In this document: piece by piece, positions 1 to 17,312 of the stretch | Numbering within the stretch: the stretch's first letter is position 1 | Layout of the letters: each line of letters opens with the position of its first letter | DNA from: a virus | Virus record (IMG/VR): IMGVR_UViG_3300017755_000096 | Coordinates: 1 to 25,203 of that record | Reading direction: 5' to 3' (one strand) | DNA: 25,203 bases | The notes under the pieces: model-generated | Databases searched by the model: none | What the model was told of the DNA's origin: nothing | Seen by the model: only the letters and a program-made list of their open reading frames with translations | Made by a program: the position numbers and the translations under genes

Positions 1-2682
1 GTCATGGATGGTGGCCAAGGATATTCTACTGGAGATAAGTTGAATGTTACTGGAACAGCAACAACAACTGGATTTACAACTGCTACTGTAAATGTTGATG
101 CAATCTATGATAATACTGGTGATGTTATCTACATTACCGATATTGGAGGTAATAGTTCGCAGTATAATACACTCTATAGAGTTACTGGTATCACAACCAC
201 ATATCCTGACCAAATTTTTGTAGAATCTGCTGATACTATTTCTGGAATCAACACTATTGGTGTTGGTATAACTGATCTTTTAAGTTCTAAGGCATATAAT
301 CTTGGACCTACGATCGGTATCTCATCACTTTCTTATAATAATATAACGGGCATTGTAAGCTTTACGTCGGTGGCTAATCATGGATTATCAGAAGACAACA
401 AGATTCGACTTGCTGGTGCTAACGACGCTGGCTACAATAAAGATCACATTGTTACCAGAATTACAAGTCAGAATACTTTTGAAGTTAATGTCGGAGTTGG
501 AACAACAGTACCAAATGCATTAGGAACAATCCGAGCATTTAGAAACGGATTCACTTCTAGGGGTGGTTTAATTAGTCTTTCTGATCAAAATATTGGTGGT
601 AGACTTATCGATCAGTATGGTGGTGTAACTGCAGAATTAAGTGCTGCTATTACATCAGCAGATGCGACAACACTTTCTATTGATAATCTAAGTAATTATG
701 ACTTTGAGATTGGTGATTACTTACAGATCAATGATGAAATCTTCAGAATTAAAGAATCTGTAGATGGAAACCCCATTACTGTCTTTAGAGGATCACTTGG
801 ATCTATAAGAGGAACACATGCTTCTGGTGATGTTGTAAGGAGGATTAAACCAATTCCGATGGAATTGAGAAGAAACTCTATTATTCGTGCTTCTGGTCAT
901 ACATTTGAATATCTTGGTTATGGTCCTGGTAACTACTCTACAGGTTTACCTGATAGACAAGATAGAGTTCTTGATCAGAGAGAGATCTTTATTGCACAGG
1001 CTAACAAGCAAAATGGTGGTGTCGTTGCATTTACTGCAATGGACAGTGATGGTAACTTCTTTATTGGTAATAAGAAACTTAACTCTACAACTGGTAGAGA
1101 AGATGTATTTGATGCTCCTATCATTACTATTACTGGTCAGGATGTTACTACAGGAAATCAAGCAGGATTTGATTCTCAAGTATCTTCTGAGATTACAGTT
1201 ACAAGATCTCTAAAAGTTGAAGGTGGTTCTGAGAAAAATATTGTTTCTGAGTTTGATGGACCAACTATTTTTAATCAAAAGATTACATCTTCTTCTGATG
1301 ATGGTGTAGAATTGAAGTCCTTGTTTATGCAAGGTGAGAATAAGATTTCTAGAAAGTATACAAACTCTCCATCTAAACCAACGTTTGCTGGAAACCCTGG
1401 AGATATTGTCCTTAATTCTCAACCCGATAGTGGAGGAACTCTTGGATGGGTTTACACTTCCGATAATATCTGGGAAGATTTTGGACTACTTTCCGATCAA
1501 GGATTACCTTTGTCTAAGAACGTTGGTATTACAACATTCGGTGCAAGTTATGCAGGTATTGCAACTAACATTAACTTTGTAGGAACTGGTGTTTCTATTA
1601 TTGGATCGGTTGATAGTGTATCTGGAGTTGGTACTGTTTCGTTCTTCTCTAGTTCTGTTGAACCTGAGTTCTTGATTGTTGCTGGTGTATCTACATTCAA
1701 TAATAATGTTATTGCAAATGAGACATTATTCTCTCAAGGTGGATTTATTGCTACAACTGGAATTGCTACATTCTTTGACGATGCAGTCTTTAGAGAAGGT
1801 GCTGCTGTATTTAATGGATTAGAAGCTGATTCCGTTACTGTTACTGGTACTATTGTTGCTACTGAATTAAATACAACTACGTTTACAAATACTACTTCTA
1901 ATTTCGCTGGAAGTATCTCTGCTGGTAGCACTTCAGATGCTACTGATAGAACAGTAAGAGTTCTGAGTGGAGATAACAATAACGCTGGATTTGAAGCATA
2001 TGGTGATACTCAGGGAACTGGATACATTCAGATAGGATCTAGAGCAGATAGAGGTGGTGGTATTTCCTACAATGGAAACCTTTCTCCATCATTTACTTTT
2101 GGCGAATCTGCAGATACTGTTACTTACTACAGAAGATCTGGTGGAGTAAATCAAGTTGTATTCTCCTATCCATATAATGATAATACAGTTAGCTTTACTG
2201 GAGATGTAACTCTTGCAGGAAATCTAACAACAGTTGATGTAACTTCCTCTGGTAATGCTTCTATTACTGGAAGTATCTCTACGGTGACGAATATTAATTC
2301 TATTGGTATTTCTACACTACCTACAATTAACTCTGATACTGTTACTGTTAATCAAAAGTTATCTATTCTTGCTCCTGTTGATCAAAACATAGTTTCTATG
2401 GGAACCTCAACAGTAATTGATTGTTCTCAAGGTAATTACTTTGTTACAACAGTTGGTGCTGGAGTTACATTTGAATTTACAAACGTTCCAGTTGGGGTCG
2501 TATATGGTGCAACTCTAGAAATTACTCATGATGCTGGTACGATTTCATGGCCTACTGCTGTTAAGTTCCCAGAAGATCAAGCTCCTGTTCTCACAGAGGG
2601 CAAGACACATCTCTTTATGTTCGTCACAGATGACGGTGGGGCTAGATTCAGGGCAGCATCACTGTTCGATTTTGACGACTAA
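1..2682 (+). CDS. Large virion structural protein, C-terminal part (5' end outside window)
   Basis: The reading frame is open from the first base (gtc atg gat...), so the gene almost certainly begins upstream and the Met at position 4 is internal; about 893 codons are visible. The protein is rich in Gly, Thr, Ser, Val, Ile and Asn, with recurring short beta-strand patterns such as GIATF, GISTL and VTGT. It has almost no Cys. The last 110 or so residues form a separable end domain (from about nt 2350) finishing in RFRAASLFDFDD. This architecture is typical of the very large virion structural or fibre-like proteins of T4-like cyanophages, which are thought to be baseplate- or tail-associated. 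The exact role in the particle cannot be told from sequence. Arg is nearly always AGA. A strong hairpin follows 24 bp after the stop, so this gene probably ends its transcript. The structural call is firm; the fibre or baseplate role is inferred. Confidence 0.85.
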   Translation, partial: VMDGGQGYSTGDKLNVTGTATTTGFTTATVNVDAIYDNTGDVIYITDIGGNSSQYNTLYRVTGITTTYPDQIFVESADTISGINTIGVGITDLLSSKAYNLGPTIGISSLSYNNITGIVSFTSVANHGLSEDNKIRLAGANDAGYNKDHIVTRITSQNTFEVNVGVGTTVPNALGTIRAFRNGFTSRGGLISLSDQNIGGRLIDQYGGVTAELSAAITSADATTLSIDNLSNYDFEIGDYLQINDEIFRIKESVDGNPITVFRGSLGSIRGTHASGDVVRRIKPIPMELRRNSIIRASGHTFEYLGYGPGNYSTGLPDRQDRVLDQREIFIAQANKQNGGVVAFTAMDSDGNFFIGNKKLNSTTGREDVFDAPIITITGQDVTTGNQAGFDSQVSSEITVTRSLKVEGGSEKNIVSEFDGPTIFNQKITSSSDDGVELKSLFMQGENKISRKYTNSPSKPTFAGNPGDIVLNSQPDSGGTLGWVYTSDNIWEDFGLLSDQGLPLSKNVGITTFGASYAGIATNINFVGTGVSIIGSVDSVSGVGTVSFFSSSVEPEFLIVAGVSTFNNNVIANETLFSQGGFIATTGIATFFDDAVFREGAAVFNGLEADSVTVTGTIVATELNTTTFTNTTSNFAGSISAGSTSDATDRTVRVLSGDNNNAGFEAYGDTQGTGYIQIGSRADRGGGISYNGNLSPSFTFGESADTVTYYRRSGGVNQVVFSYPYNDNTVSFTGDVTLAGNLTTVDVTSSGNASITGSISTVTNINSIGISTLPTINSDTVTVNQKLSILAPVDQNIVSMGTSTVIDCSQGNYFVTTVGAGVTFEFTNVPVGVVYGATLEITHDAGTISWPTAVKFPEDQAPVLTEGKTHLFMFVTDDGGARFRAASLFDFDD

Positions 2683-2879: not shown

Positions 2880-3077
2880 ATGTCTAAGAAAAAGTTTGTT
2901 TGTGTAAGTCCACTATCCAAAAAAGCAAAAAATCGTTTTGCTAATGAGATGGAATTATTTCATTCTTGTGCAATAGAGACTGAAGAAAATGATATGTTTT
3001 TTCTAGCATCATTAAATAGAAAATACTTTTTTTGGGTACCAAAAAGAGGTAATGAACACTGGAGAGTCGAAAAATGA
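2880..3077 (+). CDS. Small conserved phage protein of unknown function
   Basis: A 65-residue basic protein, with Lys/Arg clusters at the start (MSKKK, KKAKNR) and the end (VPKRGNEHWRVEK) and a hydrophobic Phe/Tyr/Trp-rich centre. No membrane segment or catalytic motif is visible. Its stop overlaps the start of the next gene (ATGA at 3074-3077), so the two are translated together. It is the first gene of the series leading into the oxygenase cluster. I recall similar short proteins in cyanomyoviruses but assign no function. No clear Shine-Dalgarno sequence precedes the ATG. Confidence 0.75.
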   Translation: MSKKKFVCVSPLSKKAKNRFANEMELFHSCAIETEENDMFFLASLNRKYFFWVPKRGNEHWRVEK

Positions 3078-3787
3078 GTGATGTTGTATTGCATCTGTAT
3101 AATAAAAGAAAGAATAAACAAATTGTAGATGTTGAACCTTTTAATGCTGAGAATGATTTTGTATATGCAGCCTTCCAGGTACCTTTACTGCATGTAAACG
3201 TGCGTGACTGGCCAACCAAAAAACAGAAACTATTAAAAATTCATAAGAATTCAAAACAAAATGAAACTAAATCTGATGATACTGATGTAAGCACTGATTA
3301 TCACTTTAATGGTGATACTGGAAATTGTTATAGTAGTCAGATCTGTAAGATCTTAGAAGAAGAAATTTCTGTTCTTGAAGATATGGTTCTTCACCCGAAC
3401 GACTATAACGATATTAACCTTGAAGACTACTGTTTGGATGACGATAAAGATTTATATTTTGAAATGACTAATTCTTGGTTTGAGTCTTCTGTTGACGGTT
3501 CATTTCATGGACCACATACTCATGGACCAATAGGATATAGTTGTGTATTGTATATTAACTTTGATCAATCAGTTCATGAACAAACAATTTTTATGAATCC
3601 TTTTTTTACTTCATTTTTTGGATGCAATCCAGAATACAAAGTTGATTTTGCTTCCGAAGGATCTTTGATATGTTTTCCTTCACCAATTGTCCACTTTACA
3701 AGACCAAATTTTTCTAAAACTGATCGTTTAATATGCTCTTGGAATATGAAAGTTGTTTCTAGTAATGGTACGGAGGTAATCTCATGA
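3074..3787 (+). CDS. 2OG-Fe(II) oxygenase-like protein
   Basis: This 237-residue protein has a C-terminal half that looks like the double-stranded beta-helix oxygenase fold seen in the TIGR02466/PF13759 type. A metal-ligand region reads FHGPHTHGPIGYSCVLYI (H148, H150), followed by EGSLICFPSPIVHFTR with the distal His at H207. Arg218 then follows in DRLICSWNMK, in the place where this family reads eRisiSFN. The N-terminal 120 residues are charged and not obviously catalytic. Such enzymes use 2-oxoglutarate, O2 and Fe(II) to hydroxylate proteins, nucleic acids or small molecules; the substrate is unknown. It overlaps both neighbours by ATGA junctions. The fold call is fairly sure. Activity is less sure, because HxH replaces the usual HxD. 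Confidence 0.75.
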   Translation: MSDVVLHLYNKRKNKQIVDVEPFNAENDFVYAAFQVPLLHVNVRDWPTKKQKLLKIHKNSKQNETKSDDTDVSTDYHFNGDTGNCYSSQICKILEEEISVLEDMVLHPNDYNDINLEDYCLDDDKDLYFEMTNSWFESSVDGSFHGPHTHGPIGYSCVLYINFDQSVHEQTIFMNPFFTSFFGCNPEYKVDFASEGSLICFPSPIVHFTRPNFSKTDRLICSWNMKVVSSNGTEVIS

Positions 3788-4440
3788 GTAATTCATCTAA
3801 AGCTACAGGTGGGATCTGTTTGTTTCCTTCTCCTTTCGTTTTTTGGAGTGATGTAGATAATCATAAAGAAATTAAAAAAAATATTCTTCCTCTTGTTTTA
3901 GAAGATATCAAAACAAATGGAGATGATTATATAAAAAACAGTAACTGGGAATGTGATATTATTTCTTCGTTTCATACTTATGGTGAAAATATGGGCGACA
4001 TTAATCAAAAATTAATGGAGAATACTGGTTTAATTAGATCTATTTGGGATGCTTATAATGATATGATTTTTACTTTAAAAGGTAAAGAAGTAATTGATGA
4101 ATATGTCTATGATTCATACTGTGACTGTGTACTTTATGATATTTGGTATAACAAATATAATGTAGATCATCATCAAGATATTCATGAACACAGTCCATTT
4201 GAGTTTTCTGGAATTTATATTTTAGATGACCCTGAGTATTCTAATACATATTTCTTTGATCACTCTTCTGTTTTTAAAGTGGAAGGAAGACATACTTTTA
4301 GCCAACAAGAAGCAAAAGACTTTGATATTCGTGAAGGAAGTATAATAATATTTCCCGGTGCTTTGCCTCATCATGTACCAACAGTAAAATCTGAAAAAAT
4401 TACACTATCATTTAATTTTAAACTAAATTCTAGTCCATGA
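3784..4440 (+). CDS. 2OG-Fe(II) oxygenase-like protein (HxH type)
   Basis: A 218-residue protein with the PF13759-like pattern: QDIHEHSPFEFSGIYIL (H134, H136), then REGSIIIFPGALPHHVP with the distal His at H196 or H197, and EKITLSFNFKL at the C-terminus, matching the family's closing strand. The basic residue that would hold 2-oxoglutarate is probably K202 or K205. The N-terminus begins with GGICLFPSPFVFW, as in family members that start with a short P-S/T-P strand. Start and stop both overlap neighbours by ATGA, so this is the middle gene of three oxygenases in a row. It is related in layout to the preceding gene but too divergent to be a recent duplicate. The substrate is unknown. Confidence 0.78.
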   Translation: MSNSSKATGGICLFPSPFVFWSDVDNHKEIKKNILPLVLEDIKTNGDDYIKNSNWECDIISSFHTYGENMGDINQKLMENTGLIRSIWDAYNDMIFTLKGKEVIDEYVYDSYCDCVLYDIWYNKYNVDHHQDIHEHSPFEFSGIYILDDPEYSNTYFFDHSSVFKVEGRHTFSQQEAKDFDIREGSIIIFPGALPHHVPTVKSEKITLSFNFKLNSSP

Positions 4441-5015
4441 AACCTAAGATAATAAAAAACTTTGCCGATAAAATAGAAGTCGGTATATTAAATTGGTGGA
4501 CTATTGATAACTATAGAAAAAATTCTTACCAATATAAAGATGCCAAAATGGATCCTGATCATCCTGGAAGTAGATTTACGACTAGGATAGGTCCTGATGA
4601 AAAGTATAGCAGTTTAAATATTGAGATAGCATACCCAAAAGTTGCGTATATAATTCAAGAAAGAATTTTATGGAGATTAAAATTAAAACACTTTAAGTTT
4701 CCCCCACCATTTTATAATGGAATTGTAAATGGAATAGGAGTTAAGGAAGGGTTGATATGTGAACATATTGATCCTGTTTATTATCCAAATACAGTAACAA
4801 TGCACTGCAATATAATTACTAGAAAAGCAGATAGTGGTGGTATTACAATAATAGATGGAATTGAATATGATATTGAACCTGGTGATCTATTAGTTTACCC
4901 TGTTTCTGAGCTATTACATAGAGTAACATTAACAAAAGGAACAACAAATAGAATTTTATGGGTTTTTGGATTTTGTTTACCAAAAGATAAAGCAGAGGAT
5001 GTGTTTCAATGTTAA
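4437..5015 (+). CDS. 2OG-Fe(II) oxygenase (canonical HxD...H...R)
   Basis: A 192-residue protein with the classical iron-binding set. HID (H110, D112) lies in LICEHIDPVYYPNTVTMHCN, then comes IEPGDLLVYPVSELLHRV with the distal His H161. R172 follows 11 residues later and fits the 2-oxoglutarate-binding Arg. The strand pattern EPGDLLVYP is typical of prolyl-hydroxylase-like oxygenases. It is distinct from the two preceding HxH-type proteins, so the cluster is not simply a tandem duplication. The start overlaps the previous stop (ATGA) and the end overlaps the next gene by 7 bp. The likely role is hydroxylation of an unknown substrate in the infected cell. Confidence 0.82.
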   Translation: MKPKIIKNFADKIEVGILNWWTIDNYRKNSYQYKDAKMDPDHPGSRFTTRIGPDEKYSSLNIEIAYPKVAYIIQERILWRLKLKHFKFPPPFYNGIVNGIGVKEGLICEHIDPVYYPNTVTMHCNIITRKADSGGITIIDGIEYDIEPGDLLVYPVSELLHRVTLTKGTTNRILWVFGFCLPKDKAEDVFQC

Positions 5016-5203
5016 GAAAATTAAGAAAAATATTTGATATATTAATGTATCCAGATGAGTTAACATGGGAAGAAGAGGTTCCAATATATGATTGGATAAA
5101 AACTATTAATGAAAAGATTGATAGAATAGAAGATAATCAAGTTTATTTACGAGCAGAAGTACTTGCACTTGAAAAAAAGACCAATAGACTGTATAATAAA
5201 TAA
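5009..5203 (+). CDS. Small charged protein, possible coiled coil
   Basis: A 64-residue protein that starts inside the end of the preceding oxygenase gene (7-bp overlap), which supports translational coupling. The first 15 residues are basic and hydrophobic (MLRKLRKIFDILMY). The second half, INEKIDRIEDNQVYLRAEVL, shows heptad-like spacing of I/V/L and may form a short coiled coil. No known domain is recognised. The 3' end overlaps the late-promoter-like motif that serves the next gene. Confidence 0.65.
   Translation: MLRKLRKIFDILMYPDELTWEEEVPIYDWIKTINEKIDRIEDNQVYLRAEVLALEKKTNRLYNK
5195..5202 (+). promoter_or_regulatory. T4-type late promoter motif
   Basis: AATAAATA matches the NATAAATA late promoter core reported for T4-like cyanophages. 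It ends 23 bp before the ATG at 5226, nearly the same spacing as the second copy at 6933-6940 relative to its gene. It sits in the last codons of the preceding gene. Late transcription here would use the phage sigma-like factor and sliding clamp (known for T4; inferred here). Confidence 0.55.
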
Positions 5204-5225
5204 TGTATCCTTTTGGAAACTTATT

Positions 5226-5555
5226 ATGACCGAAGAAAACCTTAACGTTTCATCTGATCAAGATGAAAATGTTACGATTGTAAGTAGTCCTCTTCCTACT
5301 ACTGAAACTCAGACAGTTTCAAAACTACGAGAATCTATGCAAGAATTTGCAGATATTGTAGCAAAAGTAGTAGATTCAGATATGGCTGATAGAGATGTTT
5401 TTGTTTTAATCCGAAAATCTTGGAGAGAACTTAGACAAGAAAAATTAAAAGTGTATCCAGCAAAACAAAAAAAGAGAAACAGATTAAAACTTAATAACAA
5501 AAGAAAGGGAATTATTAAAGGCAAAAAAATAAAAAATAAAAGAGAAAAGAAGTAA
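5226..5555 (+). CDS. Hypothetical protein with very basic C-terminal tail
   Basis: I take the ATG at 5226 (MTEENLNVSS...), giving 109 residues. The frame is open further upstream, but only through a TTG inside the previous gene, and the late promoter motif at 5195-5202 would lie inside that extension. The N-terminal third is acidic and Ser/Thr-rich. Residues about 37-70 look helical and mixed-charge (SKLRESMQEFADIVAKVVD). The last 30 or so are almost entirely Lys/Arg/Asn. Such a tail suggests nucleic-acid or phosphate binding, but no family is recognised. Its own late promoter motif suggests virion-stage expression. Confidence 0.7.
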   Translation: MTEENLNVSSDQDENVTIVSSPLPTTETQTVSKLRESMQEFADIVAKVVDSDMADRDVFVLIRKSWRELRQEKLKVYPAKQKKRNRLKLNNKRKGIIKGKKIKNKREKK

Positions 5556-5576
5556 ATTATTATAGGTTTTTTTATC

Positions 5577-6266
5577 ATGAACATTTGGGAACATAACGAT
5601 CTATCTAATATCCATGTAGAAGATTTTGAAGACTCAAAAATATACTGGATGGATGATTTTTATAAAAATCCTGATTTAGTTTTTCAGTTTCTTATTGAAG
5701 AACAACCACCTCTCTGGAAACATGATGAAGAAGATGAAGAGTTAATGAAACAAACCTTTAACACAAAATACTTTGAAGATAGGAGGTGGGATGGAAAACC
5801 ATCTCCTGGTCTCGAAATTCTTCATGATAAACTTAGTGATATTTTTGGTCAAGATACTGAAGATAGAGGTAAATTAGTTACTAATCATACGATCTTTTTT
5901 GCGGATGATGAATCCCGAAAAATAAACGATTACAAAAATAATTGGTGGTGGCCTCATTGTGATAGTGGATATAATGCTATCGTCTACCTTAATGAAGGTG
6001 AAGATGGTACAGAGCTTGGAACAAATTTGTATAAATCATTAAAACCAGATTTAGAACAGGATGCTTTACCTGAACATGCGCGACCATGGGTTGATAAATC
6101 ATATTGGAAACGAATTGCTGCATTTAAATCAAAATATAATAGATTAGTTGCATTTGATGGTTTTAAATATAAGCATGGAATGTCTATAGAAAATGATAAA
6201 TGGTGTCATGAAACCAGGGTAAATCAAGTTTTATTTTTTACAAGTGATGAATACTATGAGAGTTGA
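5577..6266 (+). CDS. 2OG-Fe(II) oxygenase-like protein
   Basis: A 229-residue protein. The metal site is probably H127 and D129 in WWWPHCDSGYNAIVYLN, with the distal His H200 in GFKYKHGMSI. R214 in TRVNQVLFF is the likely 2-oxoglutarate anchor. The phrase RLVAFDG before the distal His fits the strand seen in this fold. The N-terminus is acidic (DEEDEELM near residue 52). It differs in sequence from the other oxygenases nearby. It lies 21 bp after the preceding gene and 3 bp before the next, in an apparent operon. The substrate is unknown. Confidence 0.75.
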   Translation: MNIWEHNDLSNIHVEDFEDSKIYWMDDFYKNPDLVFQFLIEEQPPLWKHDEEDEELMKQTFNTKYFEDRRWDGKPSPGLEILHDKLSDIFGQDTEDRGKLVTNHTIFFADDESRKINDYKNNWWWPHCDSGYNAIVYLNEGEDGTELGTNLYKSLKPDLEQDALPEHARPWVDKSYWKRIAAFKSKYNRLVAFDGFKYKHGMSIENDKWCHETRVNQVLFFTSDEYYES

Positions 6267-6269
6267 AAA

Positions 6270-6926
6270 ATGAGTGGGCATATTCATAGGGGAGCACAAG
6301 AACCAACTTGTGATGAAATTGTATTTGAAGATTCAAAACGTGAATTAATTTTTCCTACTTTTGTTTGGTCAACTTTTCTTGGAAAAACAGATAATAATCA
6401 AATTATCAAAGATTGTTATCACTATAGAGATGGTATAGATAGAAAAGGAGTAAAAAGATCTAATGCTGGTGGTTGGCAGAGTGATGTAAGAACTTTGACC
6501 GATCGTGTTTTTGGTGGAAGATTAGAACATATTTTTGATTTAGGTTGTAAGGTAGTACAATATGCAAATGAATGTTCTGCAGATATGGATTCCCATACAG
6601 AATATTGTTTAGATACGGCTCATTTATGGGTGAATATAAACTCAGAGTATAATTATAACGTTATTCATGCTCATCCAAAAACTGATCTTGTAGCGGTTTA
6701 TTATCCTATTCATGAAAAAGGTATGGGAGAGTTGTCTTTAGTTAGACATGATGCTTCGTTATTCTTAGACACTTTCAGGGGAATTGATGACTCAGGTTCA
6801 TTTAATGTGGAATTAGAAACAGGACTATTGGTTATGTTTCCTGCACATCTTCTTCATTACGTTTATCCAAACATGACCGGTAGAGATAGGATTTCTATAT
6901 CCTTTAACCTTATTTGTTGCAACTAA
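6270..6926 (+). CDS. 2OG-Fe(II) oxygenase-like protein (PF13759/TIGR02466 type)
   Basis: A 218-residue protein and the clearest member of the PF13759-like group in the window. An early PTFVW segment (about 29-33) is followed by W119VNINSEYNYNVIHAHPKTDLVAVYY (H133, H135). Next comes a glycine turn (GMGELSL), then ETGLLVMFPAHLLHYVYPN with H196, and DRISISFNL with R207. This order and spacing matches the family closely, including the closing SFN strand. It ends the first oxygenase series, and the fibre genes start 39 bp later behind a late promoter motif. The position directly before fibre genes is typical of T4-like cyanophages and suggests a job on virion or host-surface components, but this is inference. 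Confidence 0.85.
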   Translation: MSGHIHRGAQEPTCDEIVFEDSKRELIFPTFVWSTFLGKTDNNQIIKDCYHYRDGIDRKGVKRSNAGGWQSDVRTLTDRVFGGRLEHIFDLGCKVVQYANECSADMDSHTEYCLDTAHLWVNINSEYNYNVIHAHPKTDLVAVYYPIHEKGMGELSLVRHDASLFLDTFRGIDDSGSFNVELETGLLVMFPAHLLHYVYPNMTGRDRISISFNLICCN

Positions 6927-6932
6927 ATACTT

Positions 6933-6940
6933 AATAAATA
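6933..6940 (+). promoter_or_regulatory. T4-type late promoter motif for the fibre genes
   Basis: AATAAATA, the cyanophage form of the T4 late promoter, lies in the short gap between the last oxygenase of the first series and the fibre-like gene starting 25 bp downstream at 6966. The spacing repeats that of the copy at 5195-5202. Confidence 0.6.
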
Positions 6941-6965
6941 ATCAAACATACTGAGTCGAAACTAT

Positions 6966-7499
6966 ATGTCTATCCTTCAAGCTGATGGTATCCAATTTGG
7001 TAGTGATAATACTCAGTTAAATTCAAAATTTGATATCATTGAACAAAATAGTGTAACGGCATTTTTTGAAACTACCGCTCCAACTGGTTGGGTAAAGTTA
7101 ACAACTCATAACAATAAATCACTTAGACTTGTTAGTGGAACTGGTGGTGGATTTGGACATGGAGGAAACTCTGGAGCCGGCGGAAATCCTTTTACAAGTG
7201 TCTTTACTCAAGTTCCTGTTACTGGAAGTGTTACATCAAGTGGAACTATTGGTGGACATACATTAACAATAGCTGAGTTACCTTCACATAGTCATAACGC
7301 AGGATCTCCTGTTTCTGTTAGGCCTGGAAGTCCTGGTGTTGAAGCAAGAGCAGTTAATGACCAAGCACCAAATACTTCACCTGCGGGGAGCAGCGCACCA
7401 CATACTCATTCATTTTCAGGAGATAGTGTTCCGTGGAGTGCCTCTGTAAATATAGGTGTTCAATATATTGATGTAATATTGTGCCGTTTTGTAGGTTAA
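6966..7499 (+). CDS. Collar/fibre-tip type structural protein (short paralogue)
   Basis: A 177-residue protein that starts with SILQADGIQFGSDNTQLNS, the short N-terminal repeat common on cyanophage fibre proteins, followed by AFFETTAPTGWVKL. The second half has HSH at 108-110 and HTH at 146-148. It closes with QYIDVILCRF. Paired HxH motifs recall the metal-binding centre of the T4 gp12 short tail fibre tip, where His residues hold a metal ion in a trimer. The rest is Gly/Ser/Pro/Asn-rich. It is the uninterrupted paralogue of the next gene: same start, same HxH pair and same ending. Likely a trimeric fibre tip or collar protein; the exact place on the particle is unknown. Confidence 0.75.
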   Translation: MSILQADGIQFGSDNTQLNSKFDIIEQNSVTAFFETTAPTGWVKLTTHNNKSLRLVSGTGGGFGHGGNSGAGGNPFTSVFTQVPVTGSVTSSGTIGGHTLTIAELPSHSHNAGSPVSVRPGSPGVEARAVNDQAPNTSPAGSSAPHTHSFSGDSVPWSASVNIGVQYIDVILCRFVG

Positions 7500-7517
7500 G
7501 GGAGATAATATAGTACT

Positions 7518-9065
7518 ATGGCTATTTTACAAGCAACAGGAATCGAGTTTAGTGATGGATCAGTTCTCACAAGTCTCTATGGAATAGTACCTCAAGATAA
7601 AAGAATGCTCTTTTATCAAGCTGCAGCTCCCACAAACTGGACAAAAGTTACTACCATAACTGATTCTTCACATCCTACAGGAGCTTCTATTGATAATTGT
7701 GCTATTAGAGTAGTAGCTGGAGTTGGCGGACTCCTGCAAGATGGTGATTCGACAGCATTCACAACTAGGTTTAGTTCATCTCCGGTACCATTTTCACCAG
7801 ATGGACCTTTTACATTTCTGGGATCTTCCCTAGCAACTACACTTGCATCTTTCGAGATGAGGAGCCATGGTCACGGAGCTGGTAGTGAGGTGTTGCTCGA
7901 GCCTGGTCCCTCTGAACCACAACCTTCTACCGTCCCCGTCACTAATTTTTACAATAGTCGAACTACACTTAATTATCAAACCCTATATCAACAACCAAAT
8001 ACTACTCGGGATAATCAACAGTATCAACAACCAAATACTACGCAGGTTACAAACTACGAACGAGTTACACAAAACAGACAACAACCCAACGACGAGCAGG
8101 CCAACCGCCGCAGTCGGGAAACTTTGGAATATCAGCAACCAAACGATTTCCAAAGACCCGCGCAGGTCTCAAGAAATAATCAAAGAAGTTTACAAAGAAA
8201 TACTAGACAACCAGCCACAACGCAGCAGAATCGTAATACACGGGTACAGAGAAGTCAACCAGCACCAGTAACAAGACAAGCAAATAGAAATCAACAAAGA
8301 TCATTTAATAGACGCAGCCCCAATAGTTTTAATAGGCGATCACCATCATCGAGTCAGAGAAGTATCAGTCGCAACTTTAGAAGAAGAGGAAGAAGAGGTG
8401 GTAGAAGAAGAAGAAGGAATAGAAGACCGGCGGCAAATCGACAAAGTAGAAGTGTAAATAGTCAAAGTCCCAGGTCAGGCAGTCGTCAAAGTCCAAACTC
8501 TGGTTCAAGTCCACAATCAAGACGAGAAAATCGAAACGCACAGCAAGATCGTCGGGTGCAGGGCCCTGCGTCTCGTCGAGCGACTGTGAATCGGCAGTCT
8601 TCACTTCGAGTTGATCGGCGTTCACCTGAAACCACTCAGGAGCTAAAACAGAGGACTGCAAATCGGCGGGAAGCAATAGCGTATCAGAACAACCGAAGGA
8701 TAAGAGCAAATGTAAACAGAAGGGAGCCATACACTAATCAAGTAACTCAACCGACGCAAGAAACGGCTAATCGCAATAGGCCAACGCCTATACGAGTAAC
8801 TGTTAACCGACAGTCTACTAAGCCATCACCTACATCAAATCAACAACCAGTTGTTAATAGCGTCACCTATGGCCAACCAATTATTATTCCTGGTGGTATA
8901 GTTCGTCGTAAAAACCAGAGTGGAAGCGATGATCCTACGCAAGCTATTGGTGGTAGTCAAGGTCATAATCACCCATTTACAGGTGGTACATTTGATGTAA
9001 CTTCTCCCAGTGGATTTGTTTTAGATGTTGCATACGTTGATGTTATTCTTTGCAGTTTTGACTGA
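7518..9065 (+). CDS. Fibre-tip type protein with long Arg/Gln/Asn-rich insertion
   Basis: A 515-residue protein, paralogous to the preceding gene at both ends: the N-terminus MAILQATGIEFSDGS and AAAPTNWTKV, the motif MRSHGHG (H117, H119), QGHNHPF (H483, H485), and the end AYVDVILCSFD. Between the two HxH motifs lie 363 residues where the paralogue has 35. Residues 181-440 of this insert contain about 61 Arg but only 2 Lys, with many Gln, Asn, Ser, Pro and Thr and a core GRRGGRRRRRNRR near 291-303. It is almost surely disordered and strongly basic. A purine-rich GGGAGATAA lies before the ATG. Likely a structural receptor-contact protein; the insert may bind acidic cell-surface polymers or nucleic acid (inference). 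The mix of AGA with CGA/CGG/CGC codons in the insert differs from flanking genes. Confidence 0.8.
   Translation: MAILQATGIEFSDGSVLTSLYGIVPQDKRMLFYQAAAPTNWTKVTTITDSSHPTGASIDNCAIRVVAGVGGLLQDGDSTAFTTRFSSSPVPFSPDGPFTFLGSSLATTLASFEMRSHGHGAGSEVLLEPGPSEPQPSTVPVTNFYNSRTTLNYQTLYQQPNTTRDNQQYQQPNTTQVTNYERVTQNRQQPNDEQANRRSRETLEYQQPNDFQRPAQVSRNNQRSLQRNTRQPATTQQNRNTRVQRSQPAPVTRQANRNQQRSFNRRSPNSFNRRSPSSSQRSISRNFRRRGRRGGRRRRRNRRPAANRQSRSVNSQSPRSGSRQSPNSGSSPQSRRENRNAQQDRRVQGPASRRATVNRQSSLRVDRRSPETTQELKQRTANRREAIAYQNNRRIRANVNRREPYTNQVTQPTQETANRNRPTPIRVTVNRQSTKPSPTSNQQPVVNSVTYGQPIIIPGGIVRRKNQSGSDDPTQAIGGSQGHNHPFTGGTFDVTSPSGFVLDVAYVDVILCSFD
7890..8913 (+). other. Low-complexity basic insertion inside fibre-tip gene
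   Basis: This is the segment coding residues about 125-465 of the long fibre protein. Recurrent short words include YQQPNTT, NRRSP, VNRQS, ANRR and RQSP. A purine-rich stretch at about 8380-8426 (AGA/GGA runs) encodes the Arg/Gly core. It interrupts what is otherwise a domain shared with the 177-residue paralogue, so it is best read as an insertion or loop expansion at the tip. Confidence 0.8.
7986..8041 (+). repeat. Direct repeat, 20 bp at 36-bp spacing
   Basis: TATCAACAACCAAATACTAC occurs at 7986-8005 and again at 8022-8041, in frame, encoding YQQPNTT twice at a 12-residue period. It suggests that the insert grew at least partly by short tandem duplication. Confidence 0.85.
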
Positions 9066-9100
9066 ATTGTATTATAATTAACCTATATTTGAGGTAAAAT

Positions 9101-9463
9101 ATGTCGGCAGGAAAATGGTGTCCACTTATTAGAAAAGATTGTGTTGAACATAAGTGTGCTTTTTACACTCATGTTCAGGGACATAATCCTAATACTGGAC
9201 AACCAGTTGATGAGTGGGCATGTTCTATTCAATTTCTTCCTATGCTTTTGATTGAAAATTCTCAACAACAACGTGGAACTGGAGCTGCTGTTGAGTCATT
9301 TAGAAACGAAATGGTAAAAGCAAATAAATCAAATATAAATATTCTCGAAGCAGCTGCTAATATGTTCTCTGCGACACAAAATGTTCGTGTAGTAGAAGAA
9401 GATAAGCAAAAATTTATTCCCAATTCTATAAATAACAACACAAACCCTGGAGAAAATCAATAA
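9101..9463 (+). CDS. Conserved phage protein with four-Cys pattern
   Basis: A 120-residue protein. The first 45 residues hold GKWCPLIRKDCVEHKCAFYT and EWACSIQFLP, so the Cys are at 7, 14, 19 and 41 with nearby His at 17 and 24. This is a likely metal (Zn or Fe-S) site. The following LLIENSQQQRGTGAAVESFRNE is a conserved feature I recall from many tailed-phage proteins of unknown function. The C-terminal third is polar and probably flexible. A good Shine-Dalgarno sequence, GAGGT, lies just upstream (about 9091). The stop touches the start of the next gene (TAATG), so the two are probably made together. Function unknown. Confidence 0.8.
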   Translation: MSAGKWCPLIRKDCVEHKCAFYTHVQGHNPNTGQPVDEWACSIQFLPMLLIENSQQQRGTGAAVESFRNEMVKANKSNINILEAAANMFSATQNVRVVEEDKQKFIPNSINNNTNPGENQ

Positions 9464-10908
9464 TGAAAGTAACTGTAGTTCCTCCTGATAGAATAATTAT
9501 TGTTGATAATAAAGCACTTCACCTCAAGGATGAGGATTGGAATTTTGATGATAGCCATATTCATGCTATTCAATGGAATGGAAATCAGGGTGAGATTGAG
9601 TGGATAACTAATGATCCTAACGAAAAATTAGATACCATTGATATTGCTCAACCATATATTGATTTTTTTCTTTCTGAGATTCCAAAAGTTGAAAAATTTA
9701 GACTTGAGCGTGAAGAGAGAGAACGTCAAGAACAACAATCAGCAATTGATCAACAAGTAGAAGCAGATAGATACAAGCAAGATCTAATTATAAAAATTAA
9801 AGAGACAGCAGAAGAAAACAAACGACTTTCTTTAAAAGCTTTTAACAAAGAGTTGGAAAAAGATCGTTTAAAAAATGAACTTGCAAACAAAGAAATAGAA
9901 CTTCAGCATGAGAGAAAACTTAAAGAACAAGAATTAGAAAAAATAAAAATAAAAACTGAAATTCAGATAGCTGAAGAAAAATCTCTTTCTGAAATTAATT
10001 TGCAAAAATTACGCCTCGAAAAAGAGGATAAACTGTTTAATACTAAAAGAGAAGAATTAAACCAAGCATTTAAGTCTATGGCTTCGGGATTGGCTTCTAA
10101 AGTTGAAACTCTAAATCAATATGCTGCGGAAGAAAGAGAATTGTTAGACCAAGAACGTGAGGACTATCTAAAGAAGAAGAAAGTAACTGAAAAACAGTTA
10201 AATGCACAACTAATACAAGCCGAAGTTTCGGCTGTCGAATTAGAAAAAACTAGAGAAGAGATACAGCAGGAATTTGAAATACAAGTTCAAAATACTATTA
10301 ATGATAGAGAAATAGACAGAATAAAACATGAAACTTTGATGCAAGCCCTAGAACTTGAACGAGTAAAATTACAAAATGCTATAGAAGAAACGCAGGCTGA
10401 GAAAGCTGTTCGTCTAAAAGAACTTGATAAAGAGCAGAAAGATATATCTAATATAGAAACCTCTTTAGACTTAGATCGTGAAAATATTAAGTTAGAAAGA
10501 GATCTTTTAGAAAAGGAAAGAGAAGAATTTAATAAACTAATTCAAATTGAAAAGGATAATGCTAATATGGCTCTTTATGAAGAAAGAGCACGTATTGAAG
10601 CTGAAAGGTTGGTAGATCAAAAAATTAGAGATGAAGTTGAGCGAGATGCTAGAGATATAGCAACCACCAAAGTTAGTGAGATTGCAGAAAACTTTGATCC
10701 TCTGCTACTTTTTGATCAAATTGCTAGTAATCCTGATGTTGACCTTAAGAATTTCCCAGTCGCAGAAATTCTTAGTTGGTTCTCACAACTACAGAGAATA
10801 AAAGATTTCTGTATTAAGTATGACTTAACTTATCAGCAAGTACAAAGTAGTCCTGAATTGAAAGAAATGTGTGATGAATATATTAAACAGGCCAGACATG
10901 ATGATTAA
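9463..10908 (+). CDS. Long coiled-coil protein, tail-region hypothetical
   Basis: A 481-residue protein. Residues 1-65 form a small domain (MKVTVVPPDRIIIVDNKAL, then HIHAIQWNGNQGEIEW) of a type I recall near tail fibre genes in many phages. From about 75 to 415 it is a highly charged Glu/Lys/Arg helix with heptad-like Leu/Ile spacing, certainly a long coiled coil. The end (from about residue 420) is a small globular part with FDPLLLFDQIASNPDVDLKN. It could be a rod, scaffold or fibre-assembly factor. The start overlaps the preceding stop by one base. No enzymatic motif is seen. Placement between fibre genes and oxygenases suggests a role in fibre assembly (inference). Confidence 0.75.
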   Translation: MKVTVVPPDRIIIVDNKALHLKDEDWNFDDSHIHAIQWNGNQGEIEWITNDPNEKLDTIDIAQPYIDFFLSEIPKVEKFRLEREERERQEQQSAIDQQVEADRYKQDLIIKIKETAEENKRLSLKAFNKELEKDRLKNELANKEIELQHERKLKEQELEKIKIKTEIQIAEEKSLSEINLQKLRLEKEDKLFNTKREELNQAFKSMASGLASKVETLNQYAAEERELLDQEREDYLKKKKVTEKQLNAQLIQAEVSAVELEKTREEIQQEFEIQVQNTINDREIDRIKHETLMQALELERVKLQNAIEETQAEKAVRLKELDKEQKDISNIETSLDLDRENIKLERDLLEKEREEFNKLIQIEKDNANMALYEERARIEAERLVDQKIRDEVERDARDIATTKVSEIAENFDPLLLFDQIASNPDVDLKNFPVAEILSWFSQLQRIKDFCIKYDLTYQQVQSSPELKEMCDEYIKQARHDD

Positions 10909-10936
10909 TTTATAGATTTATTGGAGATTGTGACTA

Positions 10937-12352
10937 GTGAATGATCAACTTATTAAAAATAATTTTTTAATTCTTAAAAATATTATAGATCGAGATTTTG
11001 CAATTGATTTAGGATCAGAATTTAAAAACGATTGTGAAGACGCTGATTTTGCTGGGGACGGTCAAGCAAGAAACTCACATTCGGTTTATAATTATAAAAG
11101 AGCATTAGAATTGCTTTGTGAACTTAATAGTGAGGTATCAAATGCAATAGGAGAACCTGTACTACCAACATATACTTATGGTAGAATATATAAGAACGGA
11201 TCTACGTTAGAAAAACATACAGACCGTCCTGCATGTGAAATATCATTAACTCTTCATCTTGATGGAGATGAACCTTGGCCAATATGGGTCGAGAATGTTC
11301 ATGGAAAAAGTAATTGTATTTACTTAGAACCAGGTGATGCAATGCTTTATCTTGGTTGTGTTGCACCACACTGGAGAGATGAATTTGAAGGTGAGTGGTA
11401 TTCTCAATTCTTTTTACATTATGTGAGAAGTAATGGTCCTTGTAGAGAGTGTTACTTTGATAAAGTAAAGACGAAAAATGAAGATATAATCAGAGATGCT
11501 TTATATGATGAAGTTAAGAATGATAAAGAAATTCCCCGTCAACTTATTAACAAATATGTAAGTGGACTAGTATTAAATGAAAATGATTTAGATAATAGCA
11601 ATTTTAATAGTATTACCGCCCTCAATTCTGAAACTGAAATGTCCAACAACAGCATACTTGATATTCTAGAACAAAAAAGAAACAAATTAAAAAGTAAAAA
11701 AGAATCTCCCGTTATAGAAAAGCAGATAGACGTAGAATCTGCTTTTATTCGTTTTGACGATAAGAATGTCTCTAACAATTCTGAGTTCCCTGCTTTAGAT
11801 ACTTTTATTGAAGTATATAAAGGAGGAGTTTCTGATAAACTTTGTGATAGTATTCTAAATGAATATGTTACTCAAGATTTGTGGAACCACGCGATGACCG
11901 CTGGTGGACGAGATGAACAGGCAAGAAATTGTGATGTTATTGGCATTTCAGAAAGATGTATATTAGATCAAAATCATGATTATCGTATGAAATTAGATAG
12001 TCAACTTTATGACTGTGTTCATAAAGTTTTAGACATGTATGAGGATAAGCATGGTGGAGATCAAGGTTTGTCTATTGAAAAAGATACTGGATATGAGTTG
12101 CTTAGATATAAAGAAGGCCAATTCTATATTCAACATACTGATCATTTTGCAGAGCAACCTAGGATCCTCTCTTGTACTATTTGTTTAAATGATGATTATG
12201 AAGGTGGAGAATTTGCTTTTTTTGATAGAAAAATAAAGATGAAATTGAATAAAGGTGATATACTAATGTTCCCTTCTGGTTTCATGTATCCCCATGAAGT
12301 AATGCCTGTTATTAAAGGAAATCGATATAATATAATCACTTGGTTAGTATAA
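10937..12352 (+). CDS. Two-domain 2OG-Fe(II) oxygenase
   Basis: A 471-residue protein starting at GTG; the nearby ATG at 10941 is in another frame, and TTGGAG lies 10 bp before the GTG. It has two oxygenase modules. Module 1 (about 1-170) has HTD (H94, D96) in TLEKHTDRPACEISLTLHL, then LEPGDAMLYLGCVAPHWRDE with H145; its 2-oxoglutarate Arg is not clear. Module 2 (about 285-471) has HTD (H400, D402) in GQFYIQHTDHF, then NKGDILMFPSGFMYPHEV with H453 and R463, a complete canonical prolyl-4-hydroxylase-like set. A polar linker (about 175-280) joins them. Module 2 should be active; module 1 may be active or only substrate-binding. The following oxygenase starts 4 bp after this stop. Confidence 0.85.
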   Translation: MNDQLIKNNFLILKNIIDRDFAIDLGSEFKNDCEDADFAGDGQARNSHSVYNYKRALELLCELNSEVSNAIGEPVLPTYTYGRIYKNGSTLEKHTDRPACEISLTLHLDGDEPWPIWVENVHGKSNCIYLEPGDAMLYLGCVAPHWRDEFEGEWYSQFFLHYVRSNGPCRECYFDKVKTKNEDIIRDALYDEVKNDKEIPRQLINKYVSGLVLNENDLDNSNFNSITALNSETEMSNNSILDILEQKRNKLKSKKESPVIEKQIDVESAFIRFDDKNVSNNSEFPALDTFIEVYKGGVSDKLCDSILNEYVTQDLWNHAMTAGGRDEQARNCDVIGISERCILDQNHDYRMKLDSQLYDCVHKVLDMYEDKHGGDQGLSIEKDTGYELLRYKEGQFYIQHTDHFAEQPRILSCTICLNDDYEGGEFAFFDRKIKMKLNKGDILMFPSGFMYPHEVMPVIKGNRYNIITWLV

Positions 12353-12356
12353 TTCA

Positions 12357-13109
12357 ATGCAACAAGAATATAATCAATTTATTGGAATTTATAAAAATGT
12401 ATTTAACAAATCTTACTGTGATAAGTTAATTCATATATTTAATGATAGTGAATGTAATGAAGATATTAAAGTTGGTGAATCCGCAAGTGCTTATGGTGGA
12501 TCTTTACACAGAGATGATTATGGACTTTCTTTAAATGACTACCCAGATTTAAAGTGGTATAATGATATTAATGATAAAGTTGTTGAGTGTTTAGATTTAT
12601 ATAAAATAGAGTATTTTGGATTAGAAAATTGTGACATTGGTTATTATACAAATCCATATGTAAAGATGCAAAAAACTTACCCGCGAGGTGGGTATCATAT
12701 ATGGCATTCTGAAGTAGACTCTATTGAGATGGTTCATAGAGTTCTTGCATGGATGTTATACTTAAATGATATTCCAGAAGGTGAAGGTGAAACTGAATTT
12801 TTATTTCAAGGATTAAGATTACAACCAGAACAGGGAACGCTTCTTATTTGGCCAGCTCACTTTACACATATGCACAGAGGAAATCCCGTTTATACCACAG
12901 AAAAATATATCGCAACTGGATGGATTGAATATGAGGACATAATAACAAATAGTCCCAATTCACCTATGATATATGATAAGGACAGTTGTAGATATAAACA
13001 TGATGAAAATGATGATGATTGTGGACAAGATGATGATGATCATGATATACTTCAAGAAACATTCAAGAAACAAAAACAACAGTACAAACGACTTTCCGAT
13101 TTAATTTAA
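12357..13109 (+). CDS. 2OG-Fe(II) oxygenase-like protein with acidic tail
   Basis: A 250-residue protein. The iron site appears as HSE (H117, E119) in GGYHIWHSEVDS, with Glu in place of the usual Asp. Next come AWMLYLNDIPEGEGETEF and PEQGTLLIWPAHFTHMHRG with the distal His H171 or H173, and K183 as a possible 2-oxoglutarate anchor. The layout fits the 2OG-Fe(II) superfamily well. After residue 200 there is a charged tail with an Asp cluster (about 218-230) and a KQKQQYKR end not seen in the other oxygenases here. It starts 4 bp after the two-domain oxygenase and ends 2 bp before the next gene. HxE variants exist in the superfamily, but activity is less certain. Confidence 0.78.
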   Translation: MQQEYNQFIGIYKNVFNKSYCDKLIHIFNDSECNEDIKVGESASAYGGSLHRDDYGLSLNDYPDLKWYNDINDKVVECLDLYKIEYFGLENCDIGYYTNPYVKMQKTYPRGGYHIWHSEVDSIEMVHRVLAWMLYLNDIPEGEGETEFLFQGLRLQPEQGTLLIWPAHFTHMHRGNPVYTTEKYIATGWIEYEDIITNSPNSPMIYDKDSCRYKHDENDDDCGQDDDDHDILQETFKKQKQQYKRLSDLI

Positions 13110-16141: not shown

Positions 16142-16341
16142 GTTACACTAAAGAACAACTAATTGATGCACTGTGTGCAGAGTGGGACTATCTCTGCCAT
16201 GATGATTTTGATTCTGAAAATGATCAAACAACTGAAGAACTTCGTGAGGACTTGATAGAAATGACTTTAGAAGAGTTGGTGGAAGAAACTGATACTGACG
16301 AAGGTTATACACTTGACGAATTTATGGAGAATTGGACATGA
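16138..16341 (+). CDS. Small acidic protein between helicase and methyltransferase
   Basis: A 67-residue protein, about a third Asp/Glu (HDDFDSENDQTTEELREDLI and LVEETDTDEGYTLDEFMENW). It overlaps both the helicase stop and the methyltransferase start by ATGA. The opening SYTKEQLIDALCAEWDYL is helical. I recall similar acidic proteins in cyanomyoviruses. The extreme charge would fit a DNA mimic or a partner regulating one of its DNA-acting neighbours, but this is speculation. No domain is recognised. Confidence 0.7.
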   Translation: MSYTKEQLIDALCAEWDYLCHDDFDSENDQTTEELREDLIEMTLEELVEETDTDEGYTLDEFMENWT

Positions 16342-17312
16342 CTATAACTATTCTTCAAAAATCTGTTGAAGATATTGATTCTATAGATCAGACATTTGAT
16401 CTGGTTTATATGGATCCCCCGTTCGGATTGCAACGGGATTTTACTATGCAAGAGGAAGATGGTCAGCAGAAAGGATTTTCAGATAAATGGGAATCTTTCG
16501 ATGATTACACAGATTGGTATGCAAATGTAATAAACTCATGTTGGGCCAAATTGAATAAGAACGGATGGATGTATACCCACAATAACTTTATGGGTAATGC
16601 ACTTGTGATGTCTAAAATTGATCGAAAGATTAGAGATTCTTTCTATACAAATATCTCTTGGAAAAGATCTGGACCTAAAAATAATATCAAAAATGGTTGG
16701 GGTAACATCGTAGATTCAATCTTGGTGTTTAGAAAAGGTAGTCCATATTTTGAGGTTGAATATACCTCACTCGATCCCGTCTATGCTGCAAATAGTTTCA
16801 ACAATAAAGATGATGTAGGTTACTATGCCTTGGCGAAAGTAACAGGGGAAAAGAGTAGACCATGCGCTAGATTTGAGTACAAAGGTTATAATCCTGTTTA
16901 TGGGTTCCGTATAACAAAGGAAAAACTCGAAGAACTGTCCGCGCAAGACCTTCTGCACTACGGTACAAATAATATTTACAAAAAAATCTATTCTCATGAG
17001 TCCAAAGGTGTTCCAGTGCAGAATCTATGGGATGATGTATATTTTATCAGCAGAAGTGAGAAGAATAAGCGTAAGTATCCCACACAAAAACCCTTGAAAT
17101 TGTTGCAACGTATCATAAAGGCATCATCTGAGTCGGGAGGCTGGGTTCTGGATCCTTTTTGTGGATCAGGAACGACCGCAATCGCGGCGATGGAATTGGG
17201 TCGGAACTGCATCACAATGGACGTGAATCCCGATGCTATCAGCATCGCACAGCAAACAATCGATGAGCTGTCCACTAAATCGACCAATGCGCTTGCTGAG
17301 GCATTATATTGA
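16338..17312 (+). CDS. Beta-class DNA methyltransferase (N6-adenine or N4-cytosine)
   Basis: A 324-residue protein from the ATG at 16338, which overlaps the previous stop; a TTG two codons earlier is less likely. The catalytic motif IV, VYMDPPFG (D26-F29), comes first. Motif X, TQKPLKLLQR (249-258), and the SAM-binding motif I, VLDPFCGSGTT (270-280), come late. This order defines the beta class (PF01555). DPPF alone does not separate N6-adenine from N4-cytosine. The target site is unknown and no partner nuclease is seen, so it is an orphan enzyme, probably for self-protection from host restriction or for regulation. Its last codons (DELSTKST) are written by the same DNA that elsewhere forms the promoter-leader repeat. 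Confidence 0.92.
   Translation: MTITILQKSVEDIDSIDQTFDLVYMDPPFGLQRDFTMQEEDGQQKGFSDKWESFDDYTDWYANVINSCWAKLNKNGWMYTHNNFMGNALVMSKIDRKIRDSFYTNISWKRSGPKNNIKNGWGNIVDSILVFRKGSPYFEVEYTSLDPVYAANSFNNKDDVGYYALAKVTGEKSRPCARFEYKGYNPVYGFRITKEKLEELSAQDLLHYGTNNIYKKIYSHESKGVPVQNLWDDVYFISRSEKNKRKYPTQKPLKLLQRIIKASSESGGWVLDPFCGSGTTAIAAMELGRNCITMDVNPDAISIAQQTIDELSTKSTNALAEALY

Follow-up and report, generated by a model that had tools for sequence, protein, structure and literature searches.

Why would a virus surround its tail-fibre genes with a whole set of oxygenases? This question is raised by the IMG/VR virus record IMGVR_UViG_3300017755_000096, of which positions 1 to 25,203 were analysed; this entire stretch of 25,203 bases will be called the window. 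This marine virus of cyanobacteria is related to the T4-like cyanophages, as 292 phage records share short stretches with the window and 288 of them are named either Synechococcus phage or Cyanophage. Around its tail-fibre genes F and G, seven genes (starting at 3074, 3784, 4437, 5577, 6270, 10937, and 12357) encode eight domains of the double-stranded β-helix (DSBH) oxygenase type. An earlier, sequence-only reading of the window had singled out this set, and all seven open reading frames (ORFs) are indeed found where it placed them. The best reading of the arrangement, which we hold with slightly less than even confidence, is a fibre-maturation cassette whose enzymes would hydroxylate the fibre. 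One of the enzymes accompanies a single fibre type in viral fragments that are otherwise dissimilar, which suggests, short of proof, that the spikes used by viruses for host binding undergo chemical modification by the viruses themselves.

Certain parts of this picture are already known, namely the abundance of oxygenases in cyanophages, the 24 oxygenases of phage S-SCSM1, and fibres carrying HxH motifs (described in part of PMC11705849). One table of cyanophage genes gives 2-oxoglutarate (2OG) oxygenases as "76/153" (PMC10452541), and passages of several papers count them as auxiliary metabolic genes (PMC9602691, PMC3037559, PMC9964418, PMC10452541) or treat them as host-metabolism genes (PMC3037559, PMC9602691, PMC9964418). 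Three elements appear to be new: a reciprocal link between the fibre, the small gene H, and the tandem oxygenase J, the oxygenase fold of two families labelled "ferrochelatase" and "minor coat", and an alternating Arg/Pro insert in the second fibre. In the literature searched by title and abstract opening, no paper was found that connects fibres with phage oxygenases or with hydroxylation.

The evidence that carries the proposed reading begins with gene neighbourhoods. Viral contigs were scanned once with J and once with the fibre, the best 80 of a larger number of matches being kept in each case. The scan with J gave 79 loci, 53 after de-duplication, and 28 with at least 3 kb upstream; all 28 hold both an F-type HxH fibre and H within 6 kb. 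The converse scan, which used the fibre profile alone with no oxygenase criterion, gave 80 loci and 55 after removal of near-copies (at least 95% position-wise identity of F). Where at least 3.5 kb were available downstream, J, counted as present when either half matched, was found in 40/40 loci (12/12 of those in which the second fibre has a long insert, discussed below, and 28/28 of the others). The loci brought together in this way can differ in nearly everything else. When one locus of the window type (L012) and three others (L037, L044, and L074) were compared ORF against ORF at E 1e-3, the only genes in common were the fibre, H, and DSBH genes, apart from a single small ORF that L044 shares with L074. 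Their other genes fall in different PHROG families, and the large ones are baseplate and long-fibre types in L037, the structural protein phrog_684 in L044, and the portal phrog_156 with the head protein phrog_283 in L074. The last of these loci has the C half of J alone, and in many loci the two halves are separate adjacent genes.

The upstream oxygenases behave differently from J. Among fibre-selected loci with at least 3.5 kb upstream, they occur in 12/12 insert-bearing loci (three to five genes each) vs 4/22 loci lacking the insert, a fibre truncated by the end of its contig being counted as insert-bearing if it had at least five QP or RP pairs. The number of oxygenases therefore tracks fibre type, as the sequence-only reading had proposed to ask; however, the insert-bearing loci form one clade, on one side of a single well-supported branch of the fibre tree, so that the comparison amounts to a single evolutionary contrast. 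Independent gains of the insert and the extra enzymes were looked for and not found, the tree holding one joint change. The expectation that oxygenases keep to fibres in other phages is thus strongly borne out for J, while for A to E it comes down to one clade-wide association. In a count of Pfam matches, 19/43 oxygenase matches in eight fibre-selected records are no more than 6 kb away from the fibre, where 5.0 would be expected, and in five records chosen otherwise the figure is 13/37 oxygenase places (3.9 expected); the two Pfam families counted, PF13640 and PF13759, miss D and J-N in the window and nearly miss C.

Such a crowding of enzymes could also arise if cyanophages collect genes at the fibre region, with oxygenases accumulating there and sharing no function. 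We regard this acquisition hot spot as improbable, even though rows of oxygenases do exist in other cyanophages, e.g., the eight 2OG genes and one JmjC gene of S-CREM1, and the extra enzymes show a single change on the fibre tree. At a hot spot the gene content should vary from locus to locus, whereas the insert-bearing loci keep the order A-C-D-E-F-G-H-J even where protein identity falls to about 30%, and J accompanies the fibre wherever the flank is long enough.

A cultured relative allows a closer look at these genes outside the window. Synechococcus phage S-SCSM1 (NC_070962) carries almost the same cassette with the gene order preserved, although an orthologue of B was not found in it; matched by order, its ORF240-243, 248, 249, and 251 fit, by their spacing, the genes around gp127 and gp128, the counterparts of G and F, respectively. 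Its 24 published 2OG-Fe(II) oxygenase genes are read as host-metabolism or auxiliary metabolic genes in the portion of PMC9602691 consulted, where no fibre link is named and "tail fiber" is absent from the main text. The S-SCSM1 orthologue of F is annotated "tail fiber protein (virion protein)", which presumably records detection by mass spectrometry. The note "virion protein" is missing from the counterparts of D, H, and J, the D orthologue keeping its minor coat label, and because of its absence from the D and J counterparts the enzymes are not known to be in the virion.

The published view, found in parts of PMC3037559 for T4-like cyanophages and of PMC9602691 for S-SCSM1, would make the oxygenases host-metabolism genes that lower 2OG, feed succinate, or alter host proteins, reprogramming nitrogen and energy metabolism, with their proximity to the fibre being incidental. 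The further oxygenases of S-SCSM1 far from fibres agree with such a role. Nevertheless, we think it rather unlikely for the cassette, since it leaves unexplained the presence of the fibre and H in all 28 of the J-selected loci, and of J in all 40 of the fibre-selected ones, when these loci have little else in common, as well as why eight diverse domains should be kept where one would consume 2OG.

Relatives of the N half of J (J-N) define how far the linkage extends. The neighbourhoods of such relatives were read in 12 named phages, up to 9 kb on each side. An annotated fibre lies within about 9 kb in S-SCSM1, S-PM2, Sf-CH3, ACG-2014b, and P-RSM4; S-RIM32 has an unnamed gene where S-PM2 has its fibre, S-RIM44 has a tail-fibre-assembly gene, S-CREM1 a collagen-like gene, and HTVC008M large unnamed genes. 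Three of these phages also have tryptophan halogenase annotations a few kb from oxygenase clusters and from tail, head, or packaging genes, namely S-RIM44 (L189), S-CREM1 (L186), and HTVC008M (L106). In S-CREM1 (L186:3942-9432), eight annotated 2OG oxygenase genes and one JmjC gene form an unbroken row about 3 kb after the collagen-like gene.

The domains themselves give the second line of evidence. Genes were taken as ORFs, and families were assigned with profiles built here and iterated, the family letters within PF13759 and PF13640 being approximate. The Pfam cut-off of 27 bits is exceeded by B and E for PF13759 and by K and the C half of J (J-C) for PF13640, and A is borderline for PF13759 (26 bits alone, 28.7 when scored with its neighbours in frame). 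The assignment of C relies on its motif and on a weak WelO5 match (E 0.011, with 9/15 alignment members matching at E 0.1), its PHROG search at E 0.1 having given no match. D has a weak match to DUF6445 (E 0.031; 9/14 alignment members match), and profile searches of solved structures with C and with D found no oxygenase match. The set is diverse, spreading over PF13759, PF13640, phrog_1644, and phrog_2954, which agrees with the earlier view that it is not the product of one tandem duplication.

Fold models, obtained by AlphaFold and compared with known folds, cover D, J-N, and J-C, which are three of the four domains that are hardest to recognise, and all three have the DSBH fold and match 2OG oxygenases, as the sequence-only reading had anticipated. 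For D (mean pLDDT 90.7) the best matches are OGFOD1 (Z 12.4), a bacterial P4H (11.9), and PHD2 (11.7); Foldseek gives E 3.8e-5 and a high probability, but a TM-score of 0.46 (about 0.4-0.5 across matches). The model of J has a mean pLDDT of 81.5. Its C half is closest to prolyl hydroxylases both in fold (Trichoplax PHD, Z 19.5; Pseudomonas P4H, 19.1; PHD2/P4H, about 19) and in sequence profile against solved structures (P4H 4iw3, 1.7e-5; EGLN1, 2.6e-5). For its N half the matches are SnoN, a 2OG epimerase, at Z 18.1, PHDs at 16.7-16.9, and a 2OG oxygenase from Burkholderia at 16.3; ferrochelatase has no row among the fold matches listed for J, and the rows of the N-module are DSBH enzymes, even though J-N belongs to phrog_2954, labelled "ferrochelatase". 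The PHROG label "minor coat protein" is doubtful for D, because the predicted fold of D matches OGFOD1, P4H, and PHD2. The labels of phrog_274 (DNA endonuclease V) and phrog_2297 (DNA endonuclease) look doubtful as well, because both families match window oxygenases, at 3784-6266 and 10937-13109.

In every family alignment the metal-site residues are invariant: H148xH150/H207/R218 in A (15 rows), H110xD112/H161/R172 in C (15 rows), H127xD129/H200/R214 in D (14 rows), H94xD96/H145 in J-N and H400xD402/H453/R463 in J-C (25 rows of J), H117xE119/H171/K183 in K (14 rows), and HxH...H in a 20-row alignment of B and E (four B rows), where the residues of E are H133, H135, and H196. The motifs named in the sequence-only reading are therefore all present, with HxD in C, D, J-N, and J-C and HxE in K completing the HxD/E...H triad, and HxH in A, B, and E. 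These last three and their aligned homologues have no acidic triad residue and instead have a three-His site, which by alignment is shared by the solved proteins 3bvc and 2rg4. A mostly basic anchor after the distal His had also been described, rightly for A (+11), C (+11), D (+14), J-C (+10), and K (+12); J-N has no invariant basic residue at the usual place, although its R147, Q157, and H161 are invariant, and in B and E the aligned anchor position varies. The DSBH oxygenase type is supported by the models for D, J-N, and J-C, predicted from Pfam for A, B, E, and K, and suggested by weak matches and motif for C; A, B, and E are classed as PF13759-type proteins, which may or may not use 2OG.

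Among known systems, prolyl hydroxylases (PHD2/EGLN1, algal and bacterial P4H, and OGFOD1) are like J-C and D in fold and in the HxD...H...R pattern, with about 11-26% identity in fold alignments; J differs from them in joining two unlike DSBH domains in tandem. The HxH...H...R pattern of E is kept in the PF13759-type proteins 3bvc and 2rg4, which are uncharacterised, whereas the window has three such genes within a fibre cassette. Viral DSBH enzymes acting on collagen-like proteins are exemplified by vCPH of PBCV-1 (5c5t) and L230 of mimivirus. They appear among the fold matches listed for J and D; however, they belong to viruses of eukaryotes and are associated with collagen-type repeats, unlike the insert of G, which has periods of 2 and 6, not 3.

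Alternatively, the enzymes might oxidise sugars, lipids, or small molecules of the host envelope, so that progeny avoid debris or competitors are excluded. Some of the other oxygenases in S-SCSM1 and S-SCSM2R do adjoin sugar enzymes and glycosyltransferases, and J-N matches SnoN, a small-molecule epimerase. Yet the annotation of the S-SCSM1 cassette includes no enzyme of sugar or lipid metabolism, no such family matched the window genes scanned with Pfam and PHROG, and J-C and D are most like peptide hydroxylases, so that we consider such chemistry at the cell surface very doubtful. The sequence-only reading had proposed a shared target such as virion proteins or cell-surface material, and this is partly supported: for J the link to the fibre is strong, and the fibre would be the target.

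The fibres supply the third line of evidence. The profile of F matches the solved tail fibres 9qgo (E 1.2e-8) and 9nxk (E 1.7e-4) with the HxH motifs aligned, both motifs of F aligning with those of 9qgo. G has F-like ends, and in insert-bearing second fibres such as this 250-340 residues lie between the two HxH motifs. The T4 gp37 long tail-fibre tip and the HxH fibres (9qgo) have HxH motifs in common with F and G, and G differs from them by its additional insert, which alternates strictly, has hardly any Lys, and is basic at its midpoint; the sequence matches listed did not include gp37.

The alternation can be described as follows. In the window the insert has 30 prolines whose spacings are even rather than odd in a ratio of 50:6, and none of 2000 permutations is as extreme. 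In 25 de-duplicated long inserts, including that of L074, Pro pairs at most 24 residues apart give an even:odd ratio of 1983:195; each of 14 inserts tested singly gave 0/2000 permutations as extreme. These counts come from related fibres and so are not independent. Even spacing predominates in 24/25, the exception being L074, whose fibre is of the ordinary kind with its two HxH motifs far apart. In phase with Pro, R makes up 35% of the residues, N 13%, and S 11%; out of phase, V makes up 13%, Y 8%, and F 8%. This gives one face of Arg/Pro/Asn/Ser and another of Tyr/Phe/Val, an alternation like that of a β-strand. The insert of the window has 63 R and 2 K vs 140 R and 214 K in ten other window proteins. 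The 20-residue stretch richest in basic residues and Gly falls at 0.47-0.56 of the insert length in 23/25, the exceptions being L035 (0.39) and L074 (0.65). When L074 is removed, leaving 24 proteins, the prolines of the 3' arm are opposite in phase to HxH by 356:7 (24/24 proteins).

We read the insert as a putative extended, out-and-back pair of β-strands with a basic tip, for which the support is incomplete. A collagen-type Gly-X-Y repeat is ruled out by the spacing of 2 and 6, not 3, and Gly is scarce; a disordered low-complexity insert is disfavoured because of the even Pro spacing in 24/25 long inserts. The alternation test is imperfectly specific: 61/4485 stop-to-stop ORFs of the collected loci pass it, comprising 46 HxH fibres, 3 fibres cut at a contig end, and 12 other ORFs, several of which are antisense to repetitive genes. 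Besides S-SCSM1, no passing protein was seen in the 12 other named-phage stretches examined.

It is very improbable that H and the DSBH proteins serve to supply the HxH sites in the fibre tip with Fe(II) or to protect it there, hydroxylation being secondary or absent, because eight domains with conserved metal sites would be costly for a chaperone role and iron in fibres of the window type is itself unproven, even though HxH motifs coordinate iron in T4 gp37 according to parts of PMC11705849 and PMC6957217, F and G have such motifs, and H has four conserved Cys.

Positions of the features discussed are collected in Table 1. All genes are on the + strand, in the order long fibre gene, A, B, C, a small ORF, D, E, F, G, H, I, J, and K. 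A and B overlap by 4 bases, as do B and C, and the gaps between D and E and between J and K are of 3-4 bases; because of these overlaps and gaps, A/B/C, D/E, and J/K look co-transcribed. The four conserved Cys of H come from a 12-sequence alignment, its conserved stretch being rich in "AVESFRNE"; its profile was built from these 12 sequences, most of them out of J-selected loci, and the window copy had no Pfam match at E 1 and no PHROG match at E 0.1. I, which is present in part of the loci, gave no significant Pfam match. The ORF between C and D (130 residues) has a very Lys-rich tail and a weak PHROG match (E 0.048). Farther downstream, we take 16332-17312 to be a DNA methyltransferase-like gene and 23960-24394 a peptide deformylase-like gene, by their motifs.

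Table 1. Features of the fibre region in the window
Feature	Positions	Strand	Evidence
Long fibre gene	4..2682	+	matches phrog_529 tail fiber
A, oxygenase-like, PF13759 type, HxH...H...R	3074..3787	+	PF13759 score, invariant site
B, oxygenase-like, PF13759, HxH...H	3784..4440	+	PF13759 42.5 bits; site columns common with E
C, putative divergent DSBH-type oxygenase, HxD...H...R	4437..5015	+	weak WelO5 match and invariant motif
Small ORF between C and D	5163..5555	+	
D, DSBH oxygenase, PHROG label "minor coat protein", HxD...H...R	5577..6266	+	AlphaFold, fold match, invariant site
E, oxygenase-like, PF13759, HxH...H	6270..6926	+	PF13759 56.5 bits; 3bvc and 2rg4 alignment
F, short tail fibre, two close HxH motifs	6966..7499	+	profile match 9qgo
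G, second fibre, F-like ends and long insert	7518..9065	+	F-like N-terminal part and last HxH part
First HxH of G, residues 117-119	7866..7874	+	
Alternating Arg/Pro insert of G, residues 129-462	7902..8903	+	
Last HxH of G, residues 483-485	8964..8972	+	
H, small protein, four conserved Cys, accompanies fibre and J	9101..9463	+	
I, Glu/Lys-rich, probably coiled-coil (judged by eye)	9463..10908	+	ORF and homologues, in part of loci
J N-module, DSBH domain, PHROG label "ferrochelatase"	10937..11470	+	model, fold match, phrog_2954
J C-module, prolyl-hydroxylase-like 2OG oxygenase	11786..12352	+	PF13640 63.7 bits, profile and fold matches
K, PF13640-type oxygenase, HxE...H...K	12357..13109	+	PF13640 41.6 bits, invariant site

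Fibre maturation by hydroxylation would proceed as follows. Late in infection, the collar/HxH fibres F and G would be made together with the oxygenases. The tandem enzyme J, the common core of the system, with a C half built like prolyl hydroxylases, would act with the small Cys protein H on the adjacent fibre family, probably on a nascent or unfolded chain. In the clade of the window, G would carry a long out-and-back β-needle with an outer face of Arg/Pro/Asn/Ser, and A to E and K would hydroxylate residues of this needle before the trimer closes. Known targets of protein hydroxylation by 2OG oxygenases include Pro, Arg, and Asn. The modification may then tune the stability or the adhesion of the fibre tip, with an effect on adsorption. 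In its boldest form, which we consider rather unlikely, the proposal has a fibre tip that is a β-needle of roughly 50 nm (estimated from two arms of about 160 residues each at 0.33 nm), on whose outer Arg/Pro/Asn/Ser lattice eight dedicated oxygenase domains hydroxylate one residue after another, making it a viral counterpart of hydroxylated adhesive proteins, with J, H, and the fibre as the minimal module shared by otherwise unrelated phages.

This fibre-maturation reading is made more likely mainly by two findings: loci with few other genes in common combine J and H with a single type of fibre, and J-C and D are most like enzymes that hydroxylate peptides and proteins, namely P4H, PHD2, and OGFOD1; from this we infer that the substrates are proteins and that the fibre is among them. 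Several observations weigh against it. The prolines of the 5' arm are opposite in phase to HxH in a ratio of only 182:232 (11/24 proteins), so that this arm fails where the other succeeds, and a single needle with both arms in register with HxH is only half supported. The best match of J-N is a small-molecule enzyme, SnoN. The three-His site of the PF13759-type proteins A, B, and E need not use 2OG, as such sites occur in dioxygenases that do not use it. The association of the insert with extra enzymes, being one evolutionary contrast, may reflect shared ancestry, and the surroundings of fibre genes tend to gather foreign genes. Syn30, S-SKS1, and ACG-2014f have no annotated fibre within the stretches read, up to 9 kb on each side of their J-N relative, because of which the linkage is strict within the J subfamily recovered in the present scans and not for every J-N relative. 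Many other oxygenases of S-SCSM1 are found at 70-86 kb, in the midst of replication genes, and at 100-108 kb, close to carbamoyl-, fucosyl-, and epimerase genes. Finally, the S-SCSM1 counterpart of G, annotated "short tail fiber protein", has no "virion protein" note; it may have escaped detection for trivial reasons, because its Arg-rich insert gives very short tryptic peptides.

The issue matters because 2OG oxygenases are among the commonest cyanophage genes whose role is not established. Should many of them turn out, as a class, to act on the virion, what has been said on host reprogramming would need revision, and the label "ferrochelatase" in phages would be misleading. The question would be testable with an existing isolate, S-SCSM1, and, if the reading is true, hydroxylation of phage fibres would be a new layer in host recognition.

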